Below are positions 20 to 23,502 of a DNA stretch of 34,011 nt, piece after piece. The number at the start of each line of letters is the position of its first letter. Positions within the stretch are counted from its first letter, which is position 1. Origin of the DNA: Caloramator sp. (GTDB lineage Bacteria; Bacillota; Clostridia; Clostridiales; Caloramatoraceae); NCBI GenBank assembly GCA_026418935.1, contig JAOAAJ010000120.1:1-34011 (forward strand). The letters are read 5' to 3'. Position numbers and translations under genes: made by a program. The notes beneath the pieces are model-generated. The model searched no databases. It was not told where the DNA came from and saw nothing but the letters and a program-made list of their open reading frames with translations.

Positions 20-1254
20 CTCATAAGCCTACTATAATTGTTGGTAAGGATACAAGAATATCAGGTGATATGCTTGAAAGTGCACTTGTTGCAGGAATAA
101 TGTCAGTTGGTGCACATGCTATATGTGTTGGTGTTGTTCCAACTCCAGCAGTTGCATATCTTACAAGAAAGCTTGGTGCTGATGCAGGGGTTGTAATTTC
201 AGCGTCCCACAATCCAGTTGAATATAATGGAATAAAGTTCTTTAACAAAGATGGATATAAACTACCAGATGAAGTTGAAGATAAAATAGAAGAGATTATA
301 AATAACGGCCTTGTAGATGTACCTTCACCAACAGGAGAAGACTTAGGTGTAAGGGAACACAGAGAAGATGCAGTTGATTTATATATAGAATTTTTAAAGG
401 AAGTAGCGGGCACAAGATTAGATGGAATGAAGATTGCACTTGATTGTGCAGAAGGAGCATCCTACTATATAGCACCTAAGGTGTTTAAGGAACTTGGAGC
501 TGATGTTTTTGTAATACATAACAATCCAGATGGAAAAAATATTAATAAAAATTGTGGCTCAACTCATATGAATGAACTAAAAGATTTTACAGTTAAAATG
601 GGATGCGATTTAGGACTTGCCTTTGATGGAGATGCAGATAGATGTCTTGCGGTAGATGAAAAGGGCAATATCATAAATGGGGACTTTATAATGACAGTAA
701 TAGCAAGTGAAATGAAAAAGCAAGGAAAACTTGAAAAGGATACTCTTGTTGTTACTGTAATGAGCAATATGGGACTTGATATTGCTTGCAAAAGGGAAGG
801 TATAAATACAGTAAAGACTAAAGTTGGAGATAGATATGTTTTAGAAGAAATGATAAAGGGCGGTTATAAAATAGGAGGAGAACAGTCAGGACATATAATC
901 TTCCTTGACCACAACACAACAGGAGATGGTCTAATTACTGCACTTAAGGTTGCAACAACTCTTAAAAATAGTGGTAAGAAGATGTCAGAACTTGCTTCAA
1001 TTATGAAGGAGCTTCCACAGGTATTAGTAAATGCAAAGGTGACAAATGAAAAGAAATATGCATATACTGAAGATGAGGTTATAGTTTCAGAAATTGAAAA
1101 GTTAGAAAAGATTTTAGAAGGAAAAGGAAGAGTTTTAATTAGACCATCAGGAACAGAGCCACTTGTTAGAGTTATGCTTGAGGGAGAAAACCAAGAGGAA
1201 ATAGATATGCTTGCAAAGAACTTAGCAAAGCTTATTGAGGATAGAAGTAAATAA
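20..1254 (+). CDS. glmM: Phosphoglucosamine mutase GlmM (5' truncated)
   Basis: GlmM interconverts glucosamine-6-P and glucosamine-1-P, a cytoplasmic step towards UDP-GlcNAc and peptidoglycan. All four phosphohexomutase signatures are visible: the phosphoserine loop SASHNP (Ser codon 205-207), the metal loop DGDADR (625-642), the sugar-binding GGEQSGH, and the phosphate-binding RPSGTEP near the C-terminus. Homology starts at the adapter junction ([18 protein letters not shown]), ahead of the first in-frame Met at base 70, so that Met is internal. The family is about 448 residues and about 410 are present, so roughly the first 35-40 are missing. glmS follows after a terminator and a ribozyme. 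The intact motifs serve as a reference for the degenerate mutase domain at 16429-18873. Confidence 0.95.
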
Positions 1255-7902: not shown

Positions 7903-7930
7903 CAAAAAATTAAGGGGCATTTGCCCCTTA
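7903..7930 (-). terminator. Terminator of the glucan synthase operon
   Basis: Minus strand: perfect 9-bp GC-rich stem (7922-7930 with 7911-7919), a 2-nt gap within the loop, then U6. The gene's stop codon (7928-7930) forms the base of the 5' arm. Confidence 0.88.
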
Positions 7931-10900
7931 CATAAATACTACTATTTTATGTTCCTTTTTATCATCAAGTAGAGGAATGTAACTAAAGTCTAAAACCTTT
8001 CCGTCAAGTTCAATTCTTTCAATACCTGTACATTTTCCATTATTGTTTACAACTTTTATGTTATAGATAGTTTCGTTATAGGTGTAGGATATTTCATATT
8101 CTTTCCAGGATTTAGGTATGCAAGGATTTATTATAATTCTGTCCTGCAGTTTATTAAATCCTAATATACCCTCAAGACCTACTTTATACATCCAGCCAGA
8201 GGAACCAGTATACCAAGTCCAACCACCACGACCAACGTGTGGTTCAACTGCATACACATCGGCAGCCATAACATAGGGTTCTACTTTATACTTTGAACAT
8301 TCAAGTTGAGTTGTTGTGTGGTTTATTGGGTTAATCATATCAAATAGTTTAAATGCTTTATCGCCTAAACCTAATTTTGCATAGGCAAGTATAACCCAAG
8401 TGGCGGCGTGAGTGTATTGACCTCCATTTTCACGAACTCCAGGAACATAACCTTTAATATAGCCTGGATTTAAATCGCTTTTATCAAAGGCTGGTGTAAA
8501 TAGTTTTATTAAAGCGTCATCGTAGGAAACAAGGTATTTTTCAACCGCATCCATTGCCTTAAGTGCTCTTTCTTTATCTCCAGCATCTGAAATTAAAGAC
8601 CAAGACTGTGCAAGTGAGTCAATCTTACATTCTTGGTTAATGCTTGAGCCAAGAGGAGTTCCGTCATCAAAATATGCACGTCTGTACCATTCACCATCCC
8701 AAGCGTTTTCTTCAATGGCATTCAATATTTTTTGCATCTGTTCTTTATATTTTATAGCTCTATCTTTATCATTTAGCTTTTCACAAATAGGTATAAACCT
8801 ATTTAGTATATCAATTAAAAACCACCCCAGCCAAACGCTTTCGCCTTTTCCTTTGTTTCCTACTGTATTCATTCCATCGTTCCAGTCTCCACATCCCATA
8901 AGAGGTATTCCATGTTCACCATATCTCAGGCCACGTTCAATTGCCTTAATACAGTGTTCATATACACTTCCCTTTATTTCTGATGTTCTTGGGATGCCGT
9001 ATCTTTCATCAGTTTTTTCATCAAGTGGTTCATCCTCTAAATAGTTTACTTCAATATTTAGAATATCGTAATCTCCTGTTTTGTAGATGTATTCTGCTGT
9101 TACATAAGGAAGCCATAATAAATCATCCGAGAATTTAGTTCTTATTCCTTTATCGTGACTTCCTGGATGCCACCAGTGTTGAACATCACCTTCTACAAAT
9201 TGATGTGCACAGTGAAGGAGTATTTGTGTTTTTGCTATTTCAGGCTTTATATTTATGAAGCTTAAGACATCCTGTAGCTGGTCTCTAAATCCATATGCAC
9301 CACCAGATTGATAGAAGGCAGACCTTGCCCATATTCTGCAACATAATGTCTGATATAGTAGCCAAGTATTCATTAAAATGTTAAATGTTTTACTTGGGGT
9401 AGTAACTTTAATACTATCAAGTAGTTTATGCCACATAGATACTGCCTCATTGAATTTTTGCCTACATACATTAATATTTTTGTACTTATTAACTATATTG
9501 TTCAAATCTTCAAAGTTTAGGCAGTTACCTAACATCAAACATATTTCTTTTTCTTCGTTTTGTTCTATTTCTAAATTTAATTGAATAACTGAACAAGGAT
9601 TTAATCCAGCACCTACAGTTTTACTTAAGGCTTCAAAATTCAGACCTTCTGGGCAATCAAGTTTATTTTCATCCTTGACAAATTCATTTAAGTTACCAGT
9701 GTAGCTTGCTATTTTTTCGGAGGATGAAATAAACATAAGCCTATTTGGAAAGTCTGTGTTGTAGCTATTTTTAAATATAAATGAGTTAAGTTCATCATTA
9801 AATTGACTAACAATAAATTGATTGGTTAGATAATTAGTTACTCCCATCACTGGTCTTACATAGTAGAAGATAGATAGTTTTCTTCTGGCGTTACTTGTGT
9901 TTTTTAAATTTAGTAGAGATATCTTAATCATATCATCCTTTGGAACAAAACAGTTTAGTTCACCAATTAATCCATTATATTGATGTTTATACCTAACATA
10001 TCCTGTTCCATAGGTTATTACATATTCAGTTTGGTGTCTTATTGGTTTTGGAGTTACAGTAAAGAAATCTCCTGTTTCATCATCTCGTATAAATATAGTT
10101 TCATATATTGGGTCAATAATAGGGTCATTACTCCAAGGAGTTAATTTGTTTTCACGACTGTTTTCAGCAAAGGTATAACCTCCACCAGATTCGGTTGAGA
10201 TAAAACCAAATCTATTATTTGCCACAACGTTTATCCAAGGCATAGGGGTATAGGTATTGTCATTTAATTTTATTACATATTCACGTCCATCTGTGTTAAA
10301 TCCACCATATCCGTTGAATATCTGTAGTGGTTCATTGTAAATAGGTAATTCTTTAAATTCATAAACCCTATTTGTTTTATTTAGGTTTACTAAATTTAGA
10401 GATTTTTCTTCTAAATTTAGCTGCTTTTGTATGCTACCTAAATCTGCATCTATGCAAATTCTTGCAACTGAATATAATAGGTCTATATCTTCCTTTGGCA
10501 TAGAATTTATGCTTCTTATAAATATTCCACCAAATTTATCAAGCTGGTCTAAATTGTTGTTATACCTTATTAAATCTCTTATTTGTGATTGTAGAGGTTG
10601 TAGATACCCACCTTCCTCATTAACTAAAATTACAAGGTCGGTTAGAAGACCTCTAACTCTAAAATATTCGTGGCATTTTACCAGTGTTTCAACAATGTCA
10701 ATATAGTCACCTTTGCTTATTTTTACAAGCATTATGGGCAAATCTCCAGATATTCCATAAGCCCAAAGCGAAGATTGACCTTTTTGGTTGGCTTTGATAT
10801 TTTCTTCATATCTTCTTCTAATTTCTGTTACAAAAAGAATATGATTCAATATTTCAGAGAAAGTTTCCTTTTCATTTAATGTTAGGGATAAATATTTATC

Positions 10901-13900
10901 CTCCATTTGTGCTCTAAGGTATGCAGAGCTAAAGCTTCTGTCTATATTGTAGAATTCAGAATACTTTTGGCATAGCTCAATACATTGTTCTTTGCTATCG
11001 GCAATTCCTGTTATATATGCAAGTGTAACAGATGAATTTGGTTTTAGAATAATTCTTTTTCTAATGCTGAATATTGGGTCTAATACAGCACCAGTTGTAT
11101 TAGAAAGAGGCATATTTAATGCTTTAGGATTTAAAAGAGTGTTGCCTCTTCCAACAAATTTAGAACGGTCGGTTTCAATTTCAACATTTTCAGAGAATTC
11201 ACCTGTACATAAAGTATGGAATGCCCAAACTGTCTTTTTACCATGTTCTCTTGGTCTTCTTGAAGCAATAATACTATTATATTGTTCTAAAAATTCGGTT
11301 CGAATAAATAAGTTGTTAAAGGTTGGGTGAGCGATATCTGCCATCAAACTTGATAGTGTAATTTCCATATAACTTGTTACTTCTATTGTTTTTTCATAGT
11401 CAGATAGGTTGCTAATAATAATTTTTTCAACTTGGCAGTTATCCTCCGAACTAATACATACTTCTGTTGAAGTTTCAATATCTTTATCTGTCCTTAGTAT
11501 TTTTACTTTGTCATCATTAAAAACAACTTCATATTTATCAGGAATTTTTGATGTAGGTTCAATAGTATTTGACCAAACAGTATTTTCGTTTACATCTCTT
11601 ATGTAAACAAACAATCCATATTTTTTGTTTGTTAAGCTGTCTCTCCATCTATTTATAAATATATCTTTATATTTTAAGAAGTTACAGCCATAGTCACTAA
11701 TCATAGCAGAAAAATCGCCATTTGTGATCAGGTGACATTTAGGAATTAGGCTATCTGGTATACCAAGTTTCTTTGTAAAATCAACGTGTATAAATTGTGG
11801 TTTTTCAAGTGGTTTTATATCTTCTTTAATATTTTTAGTAATTATTGTTCTAACAGGTATTTTTTCTTGTAGCAAAAATTCACCAGAAATTACTTTAGGA
11901 TTAGAGTGGAATCTTTCGATTAAAATATTTTTGTTTAAATAGTTGTTTATTGATGTAAGTATCATACCTTGGTGGTGAGCCATAAAGCTTTGAACTATAC
12001 CATAGTTTGAAGTTTTATTTGTTCTATCAGGTGTAAAGTCTATTGCTTCGTATAATCCATATTTACCTAAAAGATTATATTTTATTAGTTCCTTAATATT
12101 TTCTATGGCAACGCGTGGTTTAAAGGGGAGAGCAAGTATAGTAGAATAGGGGGATATAACCATATCTTTAGATAAACCACGCTTTAGGCCAAGTGCGGGT
12201 ACACCAAAGGCTTTGTATTGGAAGTTAAGCAGTATGTCAAAACCATAAAAGCCAGACTCTGAAGTTCCCCAAGGCACTTTTCTATCCCTACCATAATTTA
12301 TTTGAGCTCTAATTACTGTTTTGTATGTTTCGTCAATTAAGCTGTTTGTATAGTTTTTCATAATTATGGCAGGCATAAAATATTCAAACATAGTTCCAGT
12401 CCAAGAAACAAGACTTAGATATCCCTCGATTTCTGTAAGGGATCTTCCAAGTTTAAACCAGTGGCTGACAGGTACCTCGCGATTAATTACAGCAAGATAA
12501 CTTGCTATTCTTGCTTCTGATGCAAGTAAGTCATAGTAGGAATTAGTTAGTCTATTATTGTCTGCATCAAATCCTATAGAGAATAGGCCACGTTTTTTAT
12601 CAAATAAAGGTGAAAATTTTGTATTAGCAACAAACTGGTTTAATCTATCTCTTAGACTATATAAAGAATTAATTAAAGAATTTATGTCCTTTGTACATAG
12701 GTTCAGCTCTTCATCAAGTAGTTTAAGAATTTCATATTCTATATTACTAATTTTGTTTTTTAATTCTGATATTTCTTGAGAAATATCTTTATATAGTGTA
12801 GGTAATTCAATTAATTTTGCTGTTTTTATACCCTCAATAAGGTTTAACAATTTCTTATATTCTTCTTTATGATTTAAAAATTCAAGCTTATTTGTATTTA
12901 TCAAACTTGGGTAGATTTTAATATAATCAATGAAATCCTTAATAGAACTTGATATATTTTTATCGTTAATACTGTTATTTAGTTTGTTTAATAGAGTAAA
13001 GACATCTAAATCCTTTGAAATTTCATTACTGTATTCATAGTAATTTAGTATGTCCTCAAGACCGTTATTAAAATTGTAGGACAGAGGATTTTTATTTAAA
13101 AATTCATCTATTGAAGTTGATGCAACCATAAGGTAGGCAACAAGATTTCCACTATCTACTGTTGAAATATATTTAGGGTGAAGTACCTGTAGTGTTCTTG
13201 TATCGTACCAGTTATATAGATGTCCATTCCACTTGTCAAGTTTTTCTAAAGTGGACATTGTTTTATCGAGCATATAAACAAACTTTTTAAGTGAGATATA
13301 TCCAAGGTCAACAGCACTGCACATAGAAAGAACTAAAAAACCAATATTTGTTGGAGATGTTCTATGTGCTATTTTAGTTGTAGGAACTTCTTGAATGTTA
13401 TCAACAGGTAAGTAGTTATTTTCTTCATTAAATATATCCTCATAGAATTTCCAAGTTTTTATTGCTATCTTCCTTATTAGCTTGATATCTTCTTCGGGTG
13501 CTTGATAAATAGGTTTAATATCGGGTTGACTTATTCTGTAAGCAACTATAGGAGAAGATAGCCACAGTAACACAAATGGTAGTGATAAAATTAGGTTATT
13601 AGTATCAACAAATAGACTTAATATAGTAATTAAACTCAAACAAATAGCAGAAGGGTACATTGCTTTAGTATAACTTTCTAAAGTGTTTTTGGTATTTTTC
13701 TCAACATCAGCAGCTGTTACCCATTCAAGAAGATTCTTATGTGATACAAATACTCTATAAATTGTTTTTAATATGGCGTCAATAGATATATAAGCAACAT
13801 AAGGTAAAAAGATAATTGTTAAGACAGATTGACATAATATGTTTTTAAACCCATATATAATATTGTTGTTTAATCTTCTGTTGATGTTTTTATAGTACTT

Positions 13901-16429
13901 AAGTTTAATATAATCAAAGAAATTAAATAAAACAGGAAGAAATATATCAAATAGTGTAAGAAGAATGAAATAAATTGATTTTAGACCAAACAAATATAAA
14001 GATAATATAATAATTAAGCTATAATTAATGGGTAGAAGACTTCTTCTTAAATTATCAAATATCTTCCATTTTGAAACTGAGTTAATAGGATTTAAAACTT
14101 TTTCTCCATAGGCATTTTTGATGAACCTATTTAGCCAAAGTATTGTTTGCCAATCTCCTCTTATCCATCTATGCATTCTTAATACATATGAATTATACTT
14201 TTGAGGGAATCCATCAATAAGCTCTATATCCGTTGCAAGTCCTACTCTTAGGTAGCTTCCTTCTATTAGGTCGTGACTTAACAATGTATTATCTGGAATT
14301 GCTGTATCCAGTGTATCCAAGAAGGAATCTACATCATAAATACCTTTTCCTGTAAATATACCTTCCTTAAACAAATCCATATAAACATCTGAAATTGCAC
14401 CACTGTAGGTATCTATACCTCCTTCAGAGGCATAGATGCGAGTAAATTTAGATTTAATACTACTTTCTATATCAATTCCTATGCGTGGCTGAATTAAGCC
14501 ATAGCCATCAATAACAACCTTTTTTTCGTGATCAACTAAAGCCCTATTAAGAGGATGAGATATTGTGCCAATGAGTTTTTGGGCAGAGTTAATTGGAAGT
14601 TTTGTATCTGCATCAAGAGTTATAACATATTTTGCATCCATTATTTTTTCAATATCACCAGCTACAACATTAAAGGTTGTATCGTTAAAACCTCTAATTA
14701 GCCTATTAAATTCACAAATTGCACCTCTTTTTCTCTCATATCCCATATACCTATTTTGTGATGAATTAAATATTCTTTTTCTGCATAGAAAAAGAAATTT
14801 ATTATCTTGATATTTTTCATTAAGATTATTTATTAATTTAACAGCAGTATCAATTATTTCATTATCTGTATCTTCAACTTCTTTTTCACTGTCCTTTAAA
14901 TCCCCAAGAAGTACAAAATATATGTTTTCACCATTATTAGATACATAGGTAATTTCAAGATTTTTAATTAACTCCTTAACTCTCTTAACACTTGGTATAA
15001 GGGTTGGTACTATTACTACTGTCTTACAGTCGTCTGGTACGCCCTCTGAATAATCAAGTTTTGGTAGAAAACTTGCTTCAACATTATTTAGAATATATCT
15101 GTTTATAATGTTTATAGAGAGATTTAATGCTATTGGTAATGTTATTAAGAGTGTTAATATTAAATTTAAGTTTTCTAAGCCTATTGGTGAGTTGTTATAT
15201 GCAAATTTTAAGTAAAAAATAACTATTAATATTGATAAAGAAAAGATAGGGAGCACATAGGAGGTAAAACCTATTTTGGTTATTTTCTTTGATACTCCTA
15301 ATCTTTTTAGTAGCTCTTCTATACCTTCATCAATTAAATAGTAACCTATGTGCTTATGTTTAACAGTATCTTTCTCGGTTTCACAACACTCAAGTGCAGT
15401 TTTTGCAACAAATGTTTCTGATAGGTTGTATTTTTTAGAAATATGCATTACCTTTTTACGGTAATAACTTCTGGTTTCAAAATCCTGTTTAGCATAGAAT
15501 CCAGATGGATCTTGCCTTAATATTCTTTCAACATAGGAGAGCTCTTCAAATAAATCTTCAAAGTTAAGTGCTATTACAAACCTTAGGCTGCTAATTGCAT
15601 TGCCAATTGACATTTGTAATTTTGCCTGTTCCTGATGTTCGTGATGTATAACATCATCAACTGTAATGTCGTACTCAAATAATTTGTCGTTTATAACCTC
15701 CATTATTGATTCATTAGATTTATTTGATTTTTTCAAGTAAATTAAAACTCTTTCTAAAAAGTGGTAGTCAATACTTTGCATATTTTCAAGGTGTTCAGAA
15801 ACTATTTTAGCCATTTCTTCATTATTTAAATTGTTAAATTGATAAACTTTGTCCCAAGTGTTTTGAATAGTATAAAGTTTAATGCATAAGGAAGAAATAT
15901 ATTCAATTAAAGACAGCTTTAACATTGGTTCAAGGCACCACAGCTCCTGCATAGTCAGTGGTGCAACCCTTTGATAAGATTCAATAAAGGATGTTAAATT
16001 TTCCTTGTCTAATCTTCCATCAGTATGGCTTATAAGTTCATAACAAACTGCAAATATTCTTGGGAGACCTTTAAATATACTGTTTTTTAAATACAACAGT
16101 TGTTTAAAAAAGTTCCTATCTAATTGGTGAGTTAATATCTTGTATTGTTCTTCTATTATATAATAGTTGTCTAAAAGCCATTCAGAAGCAGAACAAATAG
16201 GAAGATTGCTACTTGATTTTTCATAAAAGTATTTATATACATCAGTTATATTTTTAAAATTGTTATTTAATCTTGTTAAAAGAATATCATTTTGATTTGT
16301 AGTAATTTTATGCTCTTTTGCAATATCGGTTGCATGTCTATTAAGTTCGTCTAAGGATAAGATTCCTCCTTTAGTGGATAGTGGTTGAGTTTTGTCAAGA
16401 TACAAAGCCACACTATCGCTCCTTTCCAT
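7928..16429 (-). CDS. ndvB: Cyclic beta-1,2-glucan synthase (GT84-GH94, NdvB/ChvB/Cgs type)
   Basis: A giant membrane enzyme of 2,833 residues, the same size class as ChvB/Cgs (about 2,820-2,870). Known members use UDP-glucose to build a beta-1,2-glucan, cyclise it and trim its length. N-terminal helices run to about residue 380, two membrane helices occupy about 385-445, and the GT84 domain has VVIVPTLIPS, LDADTKLP (DxD near 606) and HRWIRGDWQ (near 755). Membrane helices follow at about 800-965. A glycoamylase-like domain covers about 1020-1490 (WTGTMFEYFMP, ESGFYGFD, AHHQGM). Beta-sandwich regions precede a GH94 barrel with RDQLQDVL and the catalytic-acid motif GDWNDGMN (near 2516). Its ATG shares one base with the upstream stop (TAATG), and GAAAGGAG precedes it. 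The frame is intact. Product ring size or linearity cannot be inferred. Confidence 0.92.
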   Translation of the reverse strand: MERSDSVALYLDKTQPLSTKGGILSLDELNRHATDIAKEHKITTNQNDILLTRLNNNFKNITDVYKYFYEKSSSNLPICSASEWLLDNYYIIEEQYKILTHQLDRNFFKQLLYLKNSIFKGLPRIFAVCYELISHTDGRLDKENLTSFIESYQRVAPLTMQELWCLEPMLKLSLIEYISSLCIKLYTIQNTWDKVYQFNNLNNEEMAKIVSEHLENMQSIDYHFLERVLIYLKKSNKSNESIMEVINDKLFEYDITVDDVIHHEHQEQAKLQMSIGNAISSLRFVIALNFEDLFEELSYVERILRQDPSGFYAKQDFETRSYYRKKVMHISKKYNLSETFVAKTALECCETEKDTVKHKHIGYYLIDEGIEELLKRLGVSKKITKIGFTSYVLPIFSLSILIVIFYLKFAYNNSPIGLENLNLILTLLITLPIALNLSINIINRYILNNVEASFLPKLDYSEGVPDDCKTVVIVPTLIPSVKRVKELIKNLEITYVSNNGENIYFVLLGDLKDSEKEVEDTDNEIIDTAVKLINNLNEKYQDNKFLFLCRKRIFNSSQNRYMGYERKRGAICEFNRLIRGFNDTTFNVVAGDIEKIMDAKYVITLDADTKLPINSAQKLIGTISHPLNRALVDHEKKVVIDGYGLIQPRIGIDIESSIKSKFTRIYASEGGIDTYSGAISDVYMDLFKEGIFTGKGIYDVDSFLDTLDTAIPDNTLLSHDLIEGSYLRVGLATDIELIDGFPQKYNSYVLRMHRWIRGDWQTILWLNRFIKNAYGEKVLNPINSVSKWKIFDNLRRSLLPINYSLIIILSLYLFGLKSIYFILLTLFDIFLPVLFNFFDYIKLKYYKNINRRLNNNIIYGFKNILCQSVLTIIFLPYVAYISIDAILKTIYRVFVSHKNLLEWVTAADVEKNTKNTLESYTKAMYPSAICLSLITILSLFVDTNNLILSLPFVLLWLSSPIVAYRISQPDIKPIYQAPEEDIKLIRKIAIKTWKFYEDIFNEENNYLPVDNIQEVPTTKIAHRTSPTNIGFLVLSMCSAVDLGYISLKKFVYMLDKTMSTLEKLDKWNGHLYNWYDTRTLQVLHPKYISTVDSGNLVAYLMVASTSIDEFLNKNPLSYNFNNGLEDILNYYEYSNEISKDLDVFTLLNKLNNSINDKNISSSIKDFIDYIKIYPSLINTNKLEFLNHKEEYKKLLNLIEGIKTAKLIELPTLYKDISQEISELKNKISNIEYEILKLLDEELNLCTKDINSLINSLYSLRDRLNQFVANTKFSPLFDKKRGLFSIGFDADNNRLTNSYYDLLASEARIASYLAVINREVPVSHWFKLGRSLTEIEGYLSLVSWTGTMFEYFMPAIIMKNYTNSLIDETYKTVIRAQINYGRDRKVPWGTSESGFYGFDILLNFQYKAFGVPALGLKRGLSKDMVISPYSTILALPFKPRVAIENIKELIKYNLLGKYGLYEAIDFTPDRTNKTSNYGIVQSFMAHHQGMILTSINNYLNKNILIERFHSNPKVISGEFLLQEKIPVRTIITKNIKEDIKPLEKPQFIHVDFTKKLGIPDSLIPKCHLITNGDFSAMISDYGCNFLKYKDIFINRWRDSLTNKKYGLFVYIRDVNENTVWSNTIEPTSKIPDKYEVVFNDDKVKILRTDKDIETSTEVCISSEDNCQVEKIIISNLSDYEKTIEVTSYMEITLSSLMADIAHPTFNNLFIRTEFLEQYNSIIASRRPREHGKKTVWAFHTLCTGEFSENVEIETDRSKFVGRGNTLLNPKALNMPLSNTTGAVLDPIFSIRKRIILKPNSSVTLAYITGIADSKEQCIELCQKYSEFYNIDRSFSSAYLRAQMEDKYLSLTLNEKETFSEILNHILFVTEIRRRYEENIKANQKGQSSLWAYGISGDLPIMLVKISKGDYIDIVETLVKCHEYFRVRGLLTDLVILVNEEGGYLQPLQSQIRDLIRYNNNLDQLDKFGGIFIRSINSMPKEDIDLLYSVARICIDADLGSIQKQLNLEEKSLNLVNLNKTNRVYEFKELPIYNEPLQIFNGYGGFNTDGREYVIKLNDNTYTPMPWINVVANNRFGFISTESGGGYTFAENSRENKLTPWSNDPIIDPIYETIFIRDDETGDFFTVTPKPIRHQTEYVITYGTGYVRYKHQYNGLIGELNCFVPKDDMIKISLLNLKNTSNARRKLSIFYYVRPVMGVTNYLTNQFIVSQFNDELNSFIFKNSYNTDFPNRLMFISSSEKIASYTGNLNEFVKDENKLDCPEGLNFEALSKTVGAGLNPCSVIQLNLEIEQNEEKEICLMLGNCLNFEDLNNIVNKYKNINVCRQKFNEAVSMWHKLLDSIKVTTPSKTFNILMNTWLLYQTLCCRIWARSAFYQSGGAYGFRDQLQDVLSFINIKPEIAKTQILLHCAHQFVEGDVQHWWHPGSHDKGIRTKFSDDLLWLPYVTAEYIYKTGDYDILNIEVNYLEDEPLDEKTDERYGIPRTSEIKGSVYEHCIKAIERGLRYGEHGIPLMGCGDWNDGMNTVGNKGKGESVWLGWFLIDILNRFIPICEKLNDKDRAIKYKEQMQKILNAIEENAWDGEWYRRAYFDDGTPLGSSINQECKIDSLAQSWSLISDAGDKERALKAMDAVEKYLVSYDDALIKLFTPAFDKSDLNPGYIKGYVPGVRENGGQYTHAATWVILAYAKLGLGDKAFKLFDMINPINHTTTQLECSKYKVEPYVMAADVYAVEPHVGRGGWTWYTGSSGWMYKVGLEGILGFNKLQDRIIINPCIPKSWKEYEISYTYNETIYNIKVVNNNGKCTGIERIELDGKVLDFSYIPLLDDKKEHKIVVFM

Positions 16430-18873
16430 TATGGATTTTTGAGCATTCTGTTCAATTTATTAATTACATCTTGTGATATATCATCAGCAAATTCTTGATT
16501 GTAACCTTCAATGTAAATTTTAAGTATTGGTTTATGGTCATCAGGAAGAATTATTGCATAACCTTTATCAGAAATTAGTTTTACACCTTCGTAAAGTTCC
16601 AAGTTTTCTTGTTTGTTTTGTTCAATTATCTGTCTTATAATTCTTCCTCTATCAGAAAATGCACATTTAAGTTCGTGCTGTTTAGTATAGAATTTTGGTA
16701 GTGTATCAACTGCTTCACTTAAAGAAACATTATTCTCTATTAAAAATGATGCAATATAAGCAGTGGATAAAATAGCATCAAAGTTTAATATATATTGAAC
16801 ATTTAAATAAAGATTATCTGTTTTACTTAACAATTGGTTTAATAGTTCAGCATTATTTGATTTTACTCTTGAAACTTTAACATTATATTGATTAGCAATA
16901 TTATCAACAGCAAAGGATGTTGTATATGGAACGATTAAATCCTTTTCACCTGATTTTATTGCTATTAAGTAGGACAATAGTTTATAAATATCTTGCTTTA
17001 TCACTCTTCCATTTTCATCAAATAGTATAAAGTTTTCACAACTATTATTTATTATTACTCCAAACAAAAAGCCTGATTTAACCTGCTCTGAAAAGAACTT
17101 TACATACCCATCTATATTTGCAAATTTATTTATATTATAATCAACAGATACCTTACATCCGATTGATTCTAATAAAAGGGAAGTAATAAGAGCACCTCTT
17201 TCATCTAAAGATGAAATTAGTATTCTTGGGGATTTTACTTTTATTTTTTCTATTCCTAAAATGTTATTTAAACTATTTTGTATATACAACTCATAAAAGT
17301 TTTTTATATTTATGATACTTCCGATGTTGTATGAACTGCATCTTTGAAAATCCTCGCGTATAAATATTTGGTCTATTTTCTTTTCTGTCTTTCTATCAAT
17401 ATTTGCTCCATATTCATTAATAAACTGTATATTTATTAGATTATCAGTATTTTTAGATGATATATAAATTCCTGCACTGCCTTTATAGAATCTAACGGCA
17501 TATCTTAGTACGTTTAATGGTTCATGTTCTAAATCTAAAACTTTATATCCTGATGCTATAATTCCAGCAACAATAGATTGTTTTATTGCAACTGATGAAC
17601 GGGAACCATTTGTACAAATGAGTATTGGCAACTGTTTTTTACAAGTTGAAGCATAGGCAGAACCAATTAAAGATGCAGTTTCTGGTGTGATCTCTATATT
17701 AAATTCACCTTCTATACCGTTTTCAGTAAATTTTATTCTTTGTGGTTTTGTTCCCCAGATTATATTTCTATTTACTATAGAGGAAGAGGGAATTAGTTTT
17801 TCGGGCCATATCTTTACACCAGGTTTAATTGTTGAATTTTTTTCGATAAGTGTATCTTTTCCTACAACTGTTGCTTCGTATATATGTACGGAATCCTGTA
17901 TTTTAGTAGAATCACAAATTATACTTCCTCTACATTCAACAGACTTTCCAAGCCTAACATTGTTCCATAGAATAGATCTTTTTAATGATGAAAAGGCATC
18001 AATATAACAATTATTTCCTATTATTGTATAGGATTCAATTTTGCATCCTTCAGATATATGGGTATTGTCACCAATTATACAGGGACCTCTAAATAAAACA
18101 TTTTCAGGGATAAATGTGTTTTGACCAACGTATACCCCTTCTCTAATTTTTGTAAATTTATTAGAATAAAAGTTTTCAATAACATCAAAGTTTGTTTGTC
18201 TATAGGAGTTTATATCTCCAATATCACACCAATATTCATTAGTTATGTATCCATACATAGGAACGTTATCCTTTAAAAGCCTTGGGAAAAGGTCTTTACT
18301 AAAATCAAAATTATCCCCTTTCTTATAGTAGTTAAATACTTCAGGTTCGAGTATATAAATACCAGTATTTACAGTGTCACTAAAAACTTCTCCCCAAGAG
18401 GGCTTTTCTAAGAATCTAACTATTTTACCTTCTTCATCCGTTATAACTATTCCATATTCAATTGGAATGCTTTGTTTTTTAAGTATAAGTGTCGCCTTTG
18501 AATTTTTTGATTTGTGATATTCAACTGCTTTAGTTAAATCAATGTTTGTGTATGCGTCTCCACTTATTACAATAAATGTTCCATCTAAAAAGTTATCAGC
18601 ATTTAAAACACTTCCACCAGTACCAAGTGGAGTTTCTTCTATAAAATATTGAAGATTAACTCCAAACTTTGAACCATCTTGAAAATAATCAACTATGATG
18701 TTAGGCATATAGTATAATGTAGCTGCAATTTCAGTTATATTATGTTTTTTGAGAAGATATATAATATGCTCCATAACAGGTGTATTAGCAATAGGTACCA
18801 TTGGTTTTGGTATATGACAAGTTAGTGGTCTAAGTCTTGTTCCTTCACCACCAGCCATTATCACAGCTTTCAT
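16429..18873 (-). CDS. Sugar-phosphate nucleotidyltransferase with left-handed beta-helix and degenerate phosphohexomutase domain
   Basis: Three-part protein of about 814 residues. Residues 1-235 are a nucleotidyltransferase: [18 protein letters not shown], the KPM lysine, GTGGSV, SGDAYTN, EKPSWGE. Residues about 245-370 are hexapeptide repeats. The rest aligns with phosphomannomutase/phosphoglucomutase but every active-site motif is altered: ISSKNTDN for TASHNP (near 472), NNSCEN for DGDADR (near 610), no GGExSGH, and ILPDDHKP for RPSGTEP (near 777). The front end probably makes an NDP-sugar, GDP-mannose or NDP-glucose; the mutase part is probably non-catalytic. An in-frame GTG (18882) overlaps the GAGGTG ribosome site, so the ATG at 18873 is the start. 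Coupling to the glucan synthase suggests a role in glucan supply or control. Confidence 0.87.
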
Positions 18874-18922
18874 TAAAGTCACCTCGCAGTTTTTGTAAAA
18901 TAATGTCTATATATTAGTTTTT

Positions 18923-22374: not shown

Positions 22375-22728
22375 ATGATTCTTATAAAGGAATTTGAATT
22401 TGATGCAGCTCATAATCTTATACATTATCACGGTAAATGTGAAAGACTGCACGGGCATACATATAAACTTGTTGTAAAGTTAGAGGGAGAGCCAGACAGT
22501 GAAGGAATGGTTTTTGATTTTGTTGAATTAAAGAAGATAGTTAAAGAAAGAGTTATTGATAAGTTTGATCATGCATATTTAAATGAAATAATAGAACAGC
22601 CAACTGCTGAAAATATTGCTATATATGTTTGGGATGAATTATACGACGTATTAAAAAGGGATAACTGCAGATTATATGAAGTAGAGGTTTGGGAGACAAA
22701 GACGAGTGGAATAGTTTATAGGAGGTAA
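22375..22728 (+). CDS. queD: 6-pyruvoyltetrahydropterin synthase family protein (QueD-like, probable PTPS-III)
   Basis: A 117-residue T-fold enzyme with the zinc ligands FDAAH (His13) and RLHGHTY (His26, His28). The catalytic segment is KCERLHGH: Cys22 is where QueD has its Cys, and Glu23 stands next to it. PTPS proteins with Glu replacing or accompanying the Cys (PTPS-III) make 6-hydroxymethyldihydropterin directly from dihydroneopterin triphosphate and can replace FolB. The gene begins an operon with folE2, folP and folK, has no folB partner, and no other queuosine gene is near. A folate role is therefore inferred; ordinary QueD activity for queuosine remains possible. folE2 starts 3 bp after the stop. 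Confidence 0.9.
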   Translation: MILIKEFEFDAAHNLIHYHGKCERLHGHTYKLVVKLEGEPDSEGMVFDFVELKKIVKERVIDKFDHAYLNEIIEQPTAENIAIYVWDELYDVLKRDNCRLYEVEVWETKTSGIVYRR

Positions 22729-22731
22729 TAT

Positions 22732-23502
22732 ATGAAGGACGTACAAAATGAAAGAGATTTTAGAAATATACCTTTAAAGCACGTTGGAATAAATAATTTA
22801 AAGTGGCCTGTTGTTGTAAAGGATAAGAAGAATGGCACTCAAAATACAATAGCAAAGGTGTCAATATCTGTTGATTTGCCTCATTTTCAAAGAGGAACTC
22901 ATATGAGCAGGTTTGTAGAGGTTATAAAGGAACTAAAATCAGTTTCACCAAAGGATATTGAAGCAATGTTAAGTGATTTAAAGGAAAAACTTGAGGCACA
23001 GGTTGCACACTGTAGAATGGAGTTTGATTATTTTATATCAAAACCATCACCAGTAACACAGATAGAATCTCCCTATGATGTTCAGTGTGCCTTTGAGGCT
23101 ACTAAAAACCACAACTTTGATTTTATATTGGAAGTTAAGGTGCCAGTAACAACATTATGTCCTTGTTCAAAGGAGATTAGTGAATTTGGAGCACATAACC
23201 AAAGGGCGACGGTTGATATTAAAATAAAAACAGATAAGATGATATGGATTGAGGATATAGTAAAGGTAGCAGAAGAGAGTGCAAGTACGCCAGTATTTTC
23301 ACTTTTAAAGAGAAAAGATGAAAAATGGGTTACAGAAAAGGCATATTTAAATCCAAGATTTGTTGAAGATGTCGCAAGGGAAGTTGCTATAAGACTTGAG
23401 AAAAACGAAGATATTAAATGGTATAGTGTGTGTGTTGAAAGTATAGAGAGTATACACAATCACAATGCCTTTGCTTATACAGAAAAGGGGATGATGGAAT
23501 GA
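22732..23502 (+). CDS. folE2: GTP cyclohydrolase I, FolE2 type
   Basis: Converts GTP to dihydroneopterin triphosphate, the first step of folate and of queuosine synthesis. The 256 residues match FolE2, not FolE: an early PLKHVGI segment, QRGTHMSRF, and the metal-binding and catalytic signature CPCSKEISEFGAHNQR (first Cys at residue 143). FolE2 is the metal-flexible isozyme, often used when zinc is scarce, but no zinc-dependent control site is visible here. The frame starts 3 bp after the PTPS gene, with GGAGG in its last codons, and ends in an ATGA overlap with folP, so translation is probably coupled. Confidence 0.97.
   Translation: MKDVQNERDFRNIPLKHVGINNLKWPVVVKDKKNGTQNTIAKVSISVDLPHFQRGTHMSRFVEVIKELKSVSPKDIEAMLSDLKEKLEAQVAHCRMEFDYFISKPSPVTQIESPYDVQCAFEATKNHNFDFILEVKVPVTTLCPCSKEISEFGAHNQRATVDIKIKTDKMIWIEDIVKVAEESASTPVFSLLKRKDEKWVTEKAYLNPRFVEDVAREVAIRLEKNEDIKWYSVCVESIESIHNHNAFAYTEKGMME

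Follow-up and report, generated by a model that had tools for sequence, protein, structure and literature searches.

In this study, we found that the phosphohexomutase (PHM) domain of a Caloramator fusion protein has lost its catalytic loops, and that the loss is common to its whole family. The window analysed is one whole contig of 34,011 nucleotides from a Caloramator-like genome (JAOAAJ010000120.1, GC 31%), and the protein joins a nucleotidyltransferase and a left-handed beta-helix (hexapeptide, LbH) domain to the C-terminal PHM domain. Its nearest relative is the protein of Caloramator proteoclasticus DSM 10124 (92% identical). As securely as sequence allows, classical mutase chemistry is gone from the PHM domain. 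We favour, with a probability of about one half, the reading that the fusion is a dedicated nucleoside diphosphate glucose (NDP-glucose; probably UDP-glucose) pyrophosphorylase for glucan synthesis, in which the dead mutase domain would be a built-in allosteric or assembly module.

The homology of the C-terminal domain to phosphohexomutases is certain, and the parts that differ are the catalytic loops. Pfam matched NTP_transferase (7e-53), hexapeptide/LbH repeats and PGM_PMM_I (7e-19) in the fusion protein and gave no match there to PGM_PMM_III or PGM_PMM_IV; PHM structures matched the domain over its whole length with a family profile (E 4e-89). An intact GlmM encoded in the same window served as reference, with SASHNP (199-216), DGDADR (625-642), GGEQSGH (874-894) and RPSGTEP (1141-1161) all kept. 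As shown in Table 1, three of the four altered motifs named in the original prediction were present in register, and the fourth, the sugar loop, was deleted. A fifth PHM hallmark is gone too: the arginine of the N-terminal G-[IV]-R-G is E391 in the window protein, and S, T, K and others in relatives. The phosphoserine, metal, sugar and phosphate loops of an active PHM enzyme were all lacking, and by fold the domain belongs to the PHM superfamily. The prediction was also right that the frame is open (zero internal stops between 16429 and 18882) and that the domain is present, but its span of 16429-17700 ended slightly short. Misalignment of the loops was ruled out by a profile alignment to 9du5, 1wqa and 2f7l, which gave the same registers, and by a live fusion elsewhere in the phylum (G446), which shows every motif.

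We aligned 81 full-length Bacillota homologues and compared each loop position with its counterpart in GlmM. Plasmid records of Streptomyces, Nonomuraea and Sulfuricurvum supplied five further proteins, which aligned over 97-99% of their length; Cyanobacteria and other phyla were sampled through plasmid records only. The full-length fusion was found in the same genus, in the same family and across Bacillota, and the loops were degenerate in all 86 relatives aligned (81 Bacillota and 5 Actinomycetota/Campylobacterota). Among the 81 homologues, the phosphoserine-loop region shows no conservation: the catalytic Ser was S in 21, the His after it was kept in 1 and the Pro of the motif in 0. In the metal loop, the three Asp were kept in 43, 8 and 16 sequences, and the sugar loop GGExSGH was deleted in every one. 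The R, S and T of the phosphate loop RPSGTEP were found in 0/81, and the loop was replaced by an acidic LPDxEEP, conserved as P in 80, D in 78, E or D in 74 and P in 80. Further family-specific conserved residues are R460, W775 and K/R745-G746-x-x-x-R750; eight positions (P780, D781, P785, G440, G445, R460, Y533 and G766) stood at 96-100%. These results indicate that the loop loss either is ancient or travelled with the gene, and is not a local event, since it is family-wide and includes the Streptomyces, Nonomuraea and Sulfuricurvum relatives. The same relatives rule out a loss restricted to Bacillota. The original prediction, which placed the loss in one protein, was therefore real in substance and understated in reach. 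It had asked how the altered loops are conserved in homologues, and the degenerate state proved common to all, with LPDxEEP fixed. Neutral drift or frameshifts confined to the PHM part, which it had named as evidence against itself, were not seen in the homologues. One fusion copy (G004) has a stop, in a genome that is a 74%-complete single contig.

The fold of the dead domain was examined using AlphaFold2. The full-length model, built with 48 homologues, had a mean predicted local distance difference test (pLDDT) score of 89.8; residues 381-817 alone reached a pLDDT of 93.7 and a predicted template modelling score (pTM) of 0.90. The best structural match of the C domain was 9du5, the phosphoglucomutase/phosphomannomutase (PGM/PMM) of T. 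kodakarensis (Z 38.8, 417/437 residues aligned), followed by 1wqa, that of P. horikoshii (Z 38.2, 424 residues aligned); Foldseek was also run. These archaeal-type enzymes are the closest to the domain in both fold and sequence (24-25% identity) but, unlike it, keep their catalytic loops. The ratio of nonsynonymous to synonymous substitution rates (dN/dS) between the window gene and that of C. proteoclasticus was 0.066 in the C domain, against 0.025 in the nucleotidyltransferase. The PHM domain is thus under purifying selection by this sequence measure and so appears to do something useful, because the dead state is common to all aligned homologues and is kept by selection. Since LPDxEEP and the other family-specific residues are fixed, the pattern points to constraint and not decay. 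Local pseudogene decay was ruled out by purifying selection together with phylum-wide conservation. Both the kept fold and the retention of the domain had been anticipated from the window alone.

The nucleotidyltransferase half keeps its catalytic residues. Positions G11-x-G-x-R16-x-R18-P-x-T, K26, G108-D109, E159-K160-P and D220 were kept in 80-81 of the 81 homologues, and T21 in 78. Compared with a bifunctional mannose-1-phosphate guanylyltransferase/phosphomannomutase, the protein has a catalytically complete nucleotidyltransferase and lacks a catalytically complete phosphomannomutase. The closest solved relative of residues 4-319 was 8x7s, the tlr0611 protein (E 7.5e-65, 37% identity over 326-332 columns), which, unlike the fusion, is without a PHM domain. 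It is named UTP-glucose-1-phosphate uridylyltransferase, a name alone that carries no test of UTP/glucose-1-phosphate specificity. Gene context suggests that the product is a glucose nucleotide rather than GDP-mannose.

We surveyed the gene neighbourhood at 61 loci. A glucan-synthase gene adjoined the fusion gene at 55 of them: 41 had a glycogen-synthase-like GT4 gene upstream and 14 a cyclic glucan synthase gene downstream, never both. The GT4 proteins have about 430 residues, are encoded on the same strand and have glgA_Coryne as best NCBIfam match, below its cut-off. The link to a glucan synthase made in the original prediction was upheld by the start-stop overlap in the window (Table 1) and by the 14 cyclic glucan synthase loci. 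Known cyclic glucan synthases take UDP-glucose as donor and tune chain length through phosphorolysis by GH94 (PMC11842490, PMC2995898). This context gives good support to the idea that glucan synthases receive NDP-glucose from the fusion. In a quick tree, which is not fully resolved and has one GT4-linked member within the cyclic-glucan group, the fusions linked to cyclic glucan synthases nested inside the GT4-linked ones. The conserved residues of the dead domain form a fingerprint that is identical in both kinds of fusion. Given that both contexts retain the fingerprint and that the tree is nested, the dead domain appears tied to the pyrophosphorylase and not to one partner. With the same fingerprint at the 41 loci whose neighbour is an unrelated GT4 enzyme, it is less probable that the domain is a partner specific to the glucan synthase of the window than that it is a built-in part of the nucleotidyltransferase.

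Several neighbourhoods showed features of their own. In a Bacillota group (L065-L104, e.g. L090:4435-11277), genes for GT4, the fusion, a GH57 branching enzyme, DUF4912 and CBM53 recur, and this gene group may represent an undescribed alpha-glucan pathway. At L109 (G007), a frameshift or sequencing error splits the cyclic glucan synthase that lies downstream of the fusion into two frames of 580 and 2318 aa. On a Streptomyces plasmid (L131:1-10505), a STAS-domain gene precedes the fusion gene, and within 8 kb the opposite strand carries treS and a maltotransferase-domain gene, which hints at alpha-glucan metabolism.

For the dead domain, the inference we prefer is that it serves the pyrophosphorylase as an allosteric or assembly module, since its fingerprint does not change with the adjoining synthase. 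The family may have started as a fusion of consecutive steps, from glucose 6-phosphate to glucose 1-phosphate and on to NDP-glucose. The mutase half would then have lost its catalysis but been retained in a structural and allosteric role, in which it could set how the pyrophosphorylase assembles or how active it is. Dead paralogous subunits play such a part in other sugar-nucleotide pyrophosphorylases. In GMPPA/GMPPB and in the regulatory subunits of ADP-glucose pyrophosphorylase, a non-catalytic homologous part controls the enzyme. These systems share the N-terminal fold of the fusion, but their regulatory part is a dead pyrophosphorylase subunit, whereas here it would be a dead mutase domain. 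From GH94 chemistry, the GH94 step in the synthase would release glucose 1-phosphate, and the pyrophosphorylase could re-use it without a mutase step.

Three points weigh against this reading. The full-length model had a pTM of only 0.57, and the placement between domains is uncertain. The top-ranked models for the fusion were mannose-1-phosphate guanylyltransferase and archaeal GlmU-like, all far under their cut-offs. GalU was above its cut-off in 12/15 relatives, so the fusion as sole UDP-glucose source is ruled out for most of them; in the window's own 96%-complete draft genome, no canonical GalU was found.

A scaffold was already proposed in the original prediction. In such a role, the dead domain would anchor the pyrophosphorylase to the glucan synthase (cyclic or GT4), so that NDP-glucose is delivered locally. 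This reading keeps a place as an unlikely but serious contender, below an allosteric or assembly module. Direct adjacency at 55/61 loci and the start-stop overlap in the window agree with it, and at four loci a solo nucleotidyltransferase without the PHM domain adjoins other, only 25%-similar glycosyltransferases or none. However, a substrate supplier predicts adjacency equally, and the same fingerprint occurs with both partner types even though these are unrelated. It is also kept at four Clostridium-group loci (L115, L121, L123 and L124) without an adjoining glucan synthase.

We consider it slightly less probable still that the old cleft is a ligand sensor, binding a sugar phosphate, nucleotide sugar or cyclic dinucleotide to tune the pyrophosphorylase. 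The cleft-forming four-domain fold is kept, and there are precedents. Herring PGM5, another protein of the mutase family and one with a reported non-enzymatic role (PMC5570346), was crystallised with glucose 1-phosphate (6y8y), and the CdaA-GlmM complexes (7olh, 9g69) place a PHM fold in cyclic-dinucleotide control. Against this, the classical sugar-phosphate site is gone, with an acidic phosphate loop, a deleted sugar loop and an unconserved phosphoserine-loop region. These changes weaken the sugar-phosphate sensor at the old site that had been suggested for the window protein. Furthermore, the domain lacks GlmM-specific sequence and is nearest to archaeal-type PMM/PGM, with 153 bits to TIGR03990 (cut-off 439) versus 54.8 bits to the GlmM model TIGR01455 (cut-off 447.55).

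A passive remnant, kept only since its removal would unfold the protein, seems very improbable. The catalytic loops vary freely in two places and the C domain evolves faster than the nucleotidyltransferase, but the strong positive fingerprint of eight residues argues against it, as do homologous nucleotidyltransferase-LbH proteins that exist without a PHM domain. Least credible is a truly bifunctional protein working by unorthodox mutase chemistry, as the domain annotation and a Streptomyces relative described as apparently bifunctional (SCO1388; PMC5982138) would have it, because every catalytic loop is missing, against all four kept in a true fusion of the same length (G446), and complete genomes hold separate intact mutases.

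We next examined other mutases in 23 genomes, 22 of them >90% complete. All 22 have other PHM genes, and 21 have at least two besides the fusion; in C. proteoclasticus, a pgm gene with intact motifs adjoins galU. In the window's own draft, GlmM was the sole PHM found besides the fusion. A need for the fusion as the cell's mutase is ruled out for complete relatives with other PHM genes, though not for the window's genome.

The SCO1388-type fusions, bifunctional mannose-1-phosphate guanylyltransferase/phosphomannomutase by name, match the window protein in architecture and in length class. Howlett et al. 2018 (PMC5982138) judged SCO1388 from its domains to be apparently both GMP and ManB. In contrast to this name, the mutase loops are absent in the aligned Streptomyces and Nonomuraea relatives, SCO1388 itself being outside the alignment. 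A true ManC-type/PMM fusion (G446 C1:915112-917562, equal to L169:3113-5563) also has 817 aa and the order nucleotidyltransferase then PHM, but differs in its nucleotidyltransferase type and in keeping TASHNP, DGDFDR, GGEMSAH and RLSNTEP. The G446 genome carries both this live fusion and a dead-domain one. PGM5/aciculin, a vertebrate PGM paralogue reported inactive, likewise puts the PHM fold to non-catalytic use (PMC5570346), but it is a separate protein of an unrelated lineage with no pyrophosphorylase fused. A literature search that covered few subscription journals found no report of an inactive or degenerate phosphomannomutase domain. These results suggest that the fusion proteins are not the two-in-one enzymes that their domains imply. 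Pathway models that assign phosphomannomutase or phosphoglucomutase activity to such genes are likely wrong, because the mutase half is dead in every aligned member, and these members span many Bacillota families as well as Actinomycetota and Campylobacterota. The family is linked to glucan synthesis, where pyrophosphorylases are usual control points, and LPDxEEP, R460 and the K/R-G-x-x-x-R helix define a conserved pseudoenzyme surface.

Table 1. Features of the fusion gene, its downstream neighbour and the reference GlmM in the window.
Feature	Position	Strand	Basis
Fusion coding sequence, 817 aa, GTG start: nucleotidyltransferase, LbH and degenerate PHM	16429..18882	-	Open reading frame list, Pfam
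Nucleotidyltransferase domain, residues 4-235, catalytic residues invariant in family	18178..18873	-	Pfam, alignment
LbH domain, residues ~242-375	17758..18159	-	Pfam, AlphaFold2
Degenerate PHM domain, residues 383-817, four sub-domains kept	16432..17736	-	Pfam, profile alignment, model
Former phosphoserine loop, residues 474-481: ISSKNTDN replaces (T/S)ASHNP	17440..17463	-	Alignment to GlmM
Former metal loop, residues 612-617: NNSCEN replaces DGDADR	17032..17049	-	Alignment to GlmM
Sugar loop GGExSGH deleted, site around residues 686-694	16801..16827	-	Alignment to GlmM
Former phosphate loop, residues 778-785: ILPDDHKP replaces RPSGTEP	16528..16551	-	Alignment to GlmM
Fusion stop overlapping glucan synthase start (TAATG)	16427..16431	-	
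Glucan synthase gene directly downstream of fusion gene	7928..16429	-	
Intact GlmM, reference (open from 13, ATG 70, stop 1254)	70..1254	+	Pfam, NCBIfam, alignment

The 5' part of the reference GlmM gene lies beyond the contig edge of the window, and the N-terminus that it lacks may be a 65-residue frame on contig C35 (L127) that matches the start of PGM_PMM_I. A contig of 3.5 kb assigned to a Melioribacter metagenome-assembled genome (L062) encodes a product 72% identical to the Caloramator fusion protein and is probably mis-binned. Elsewhere in the window, PTPS and FolE2 (GCHY-1) genes stand in a row at 22375-23502, followed by two short frames on the same strand.

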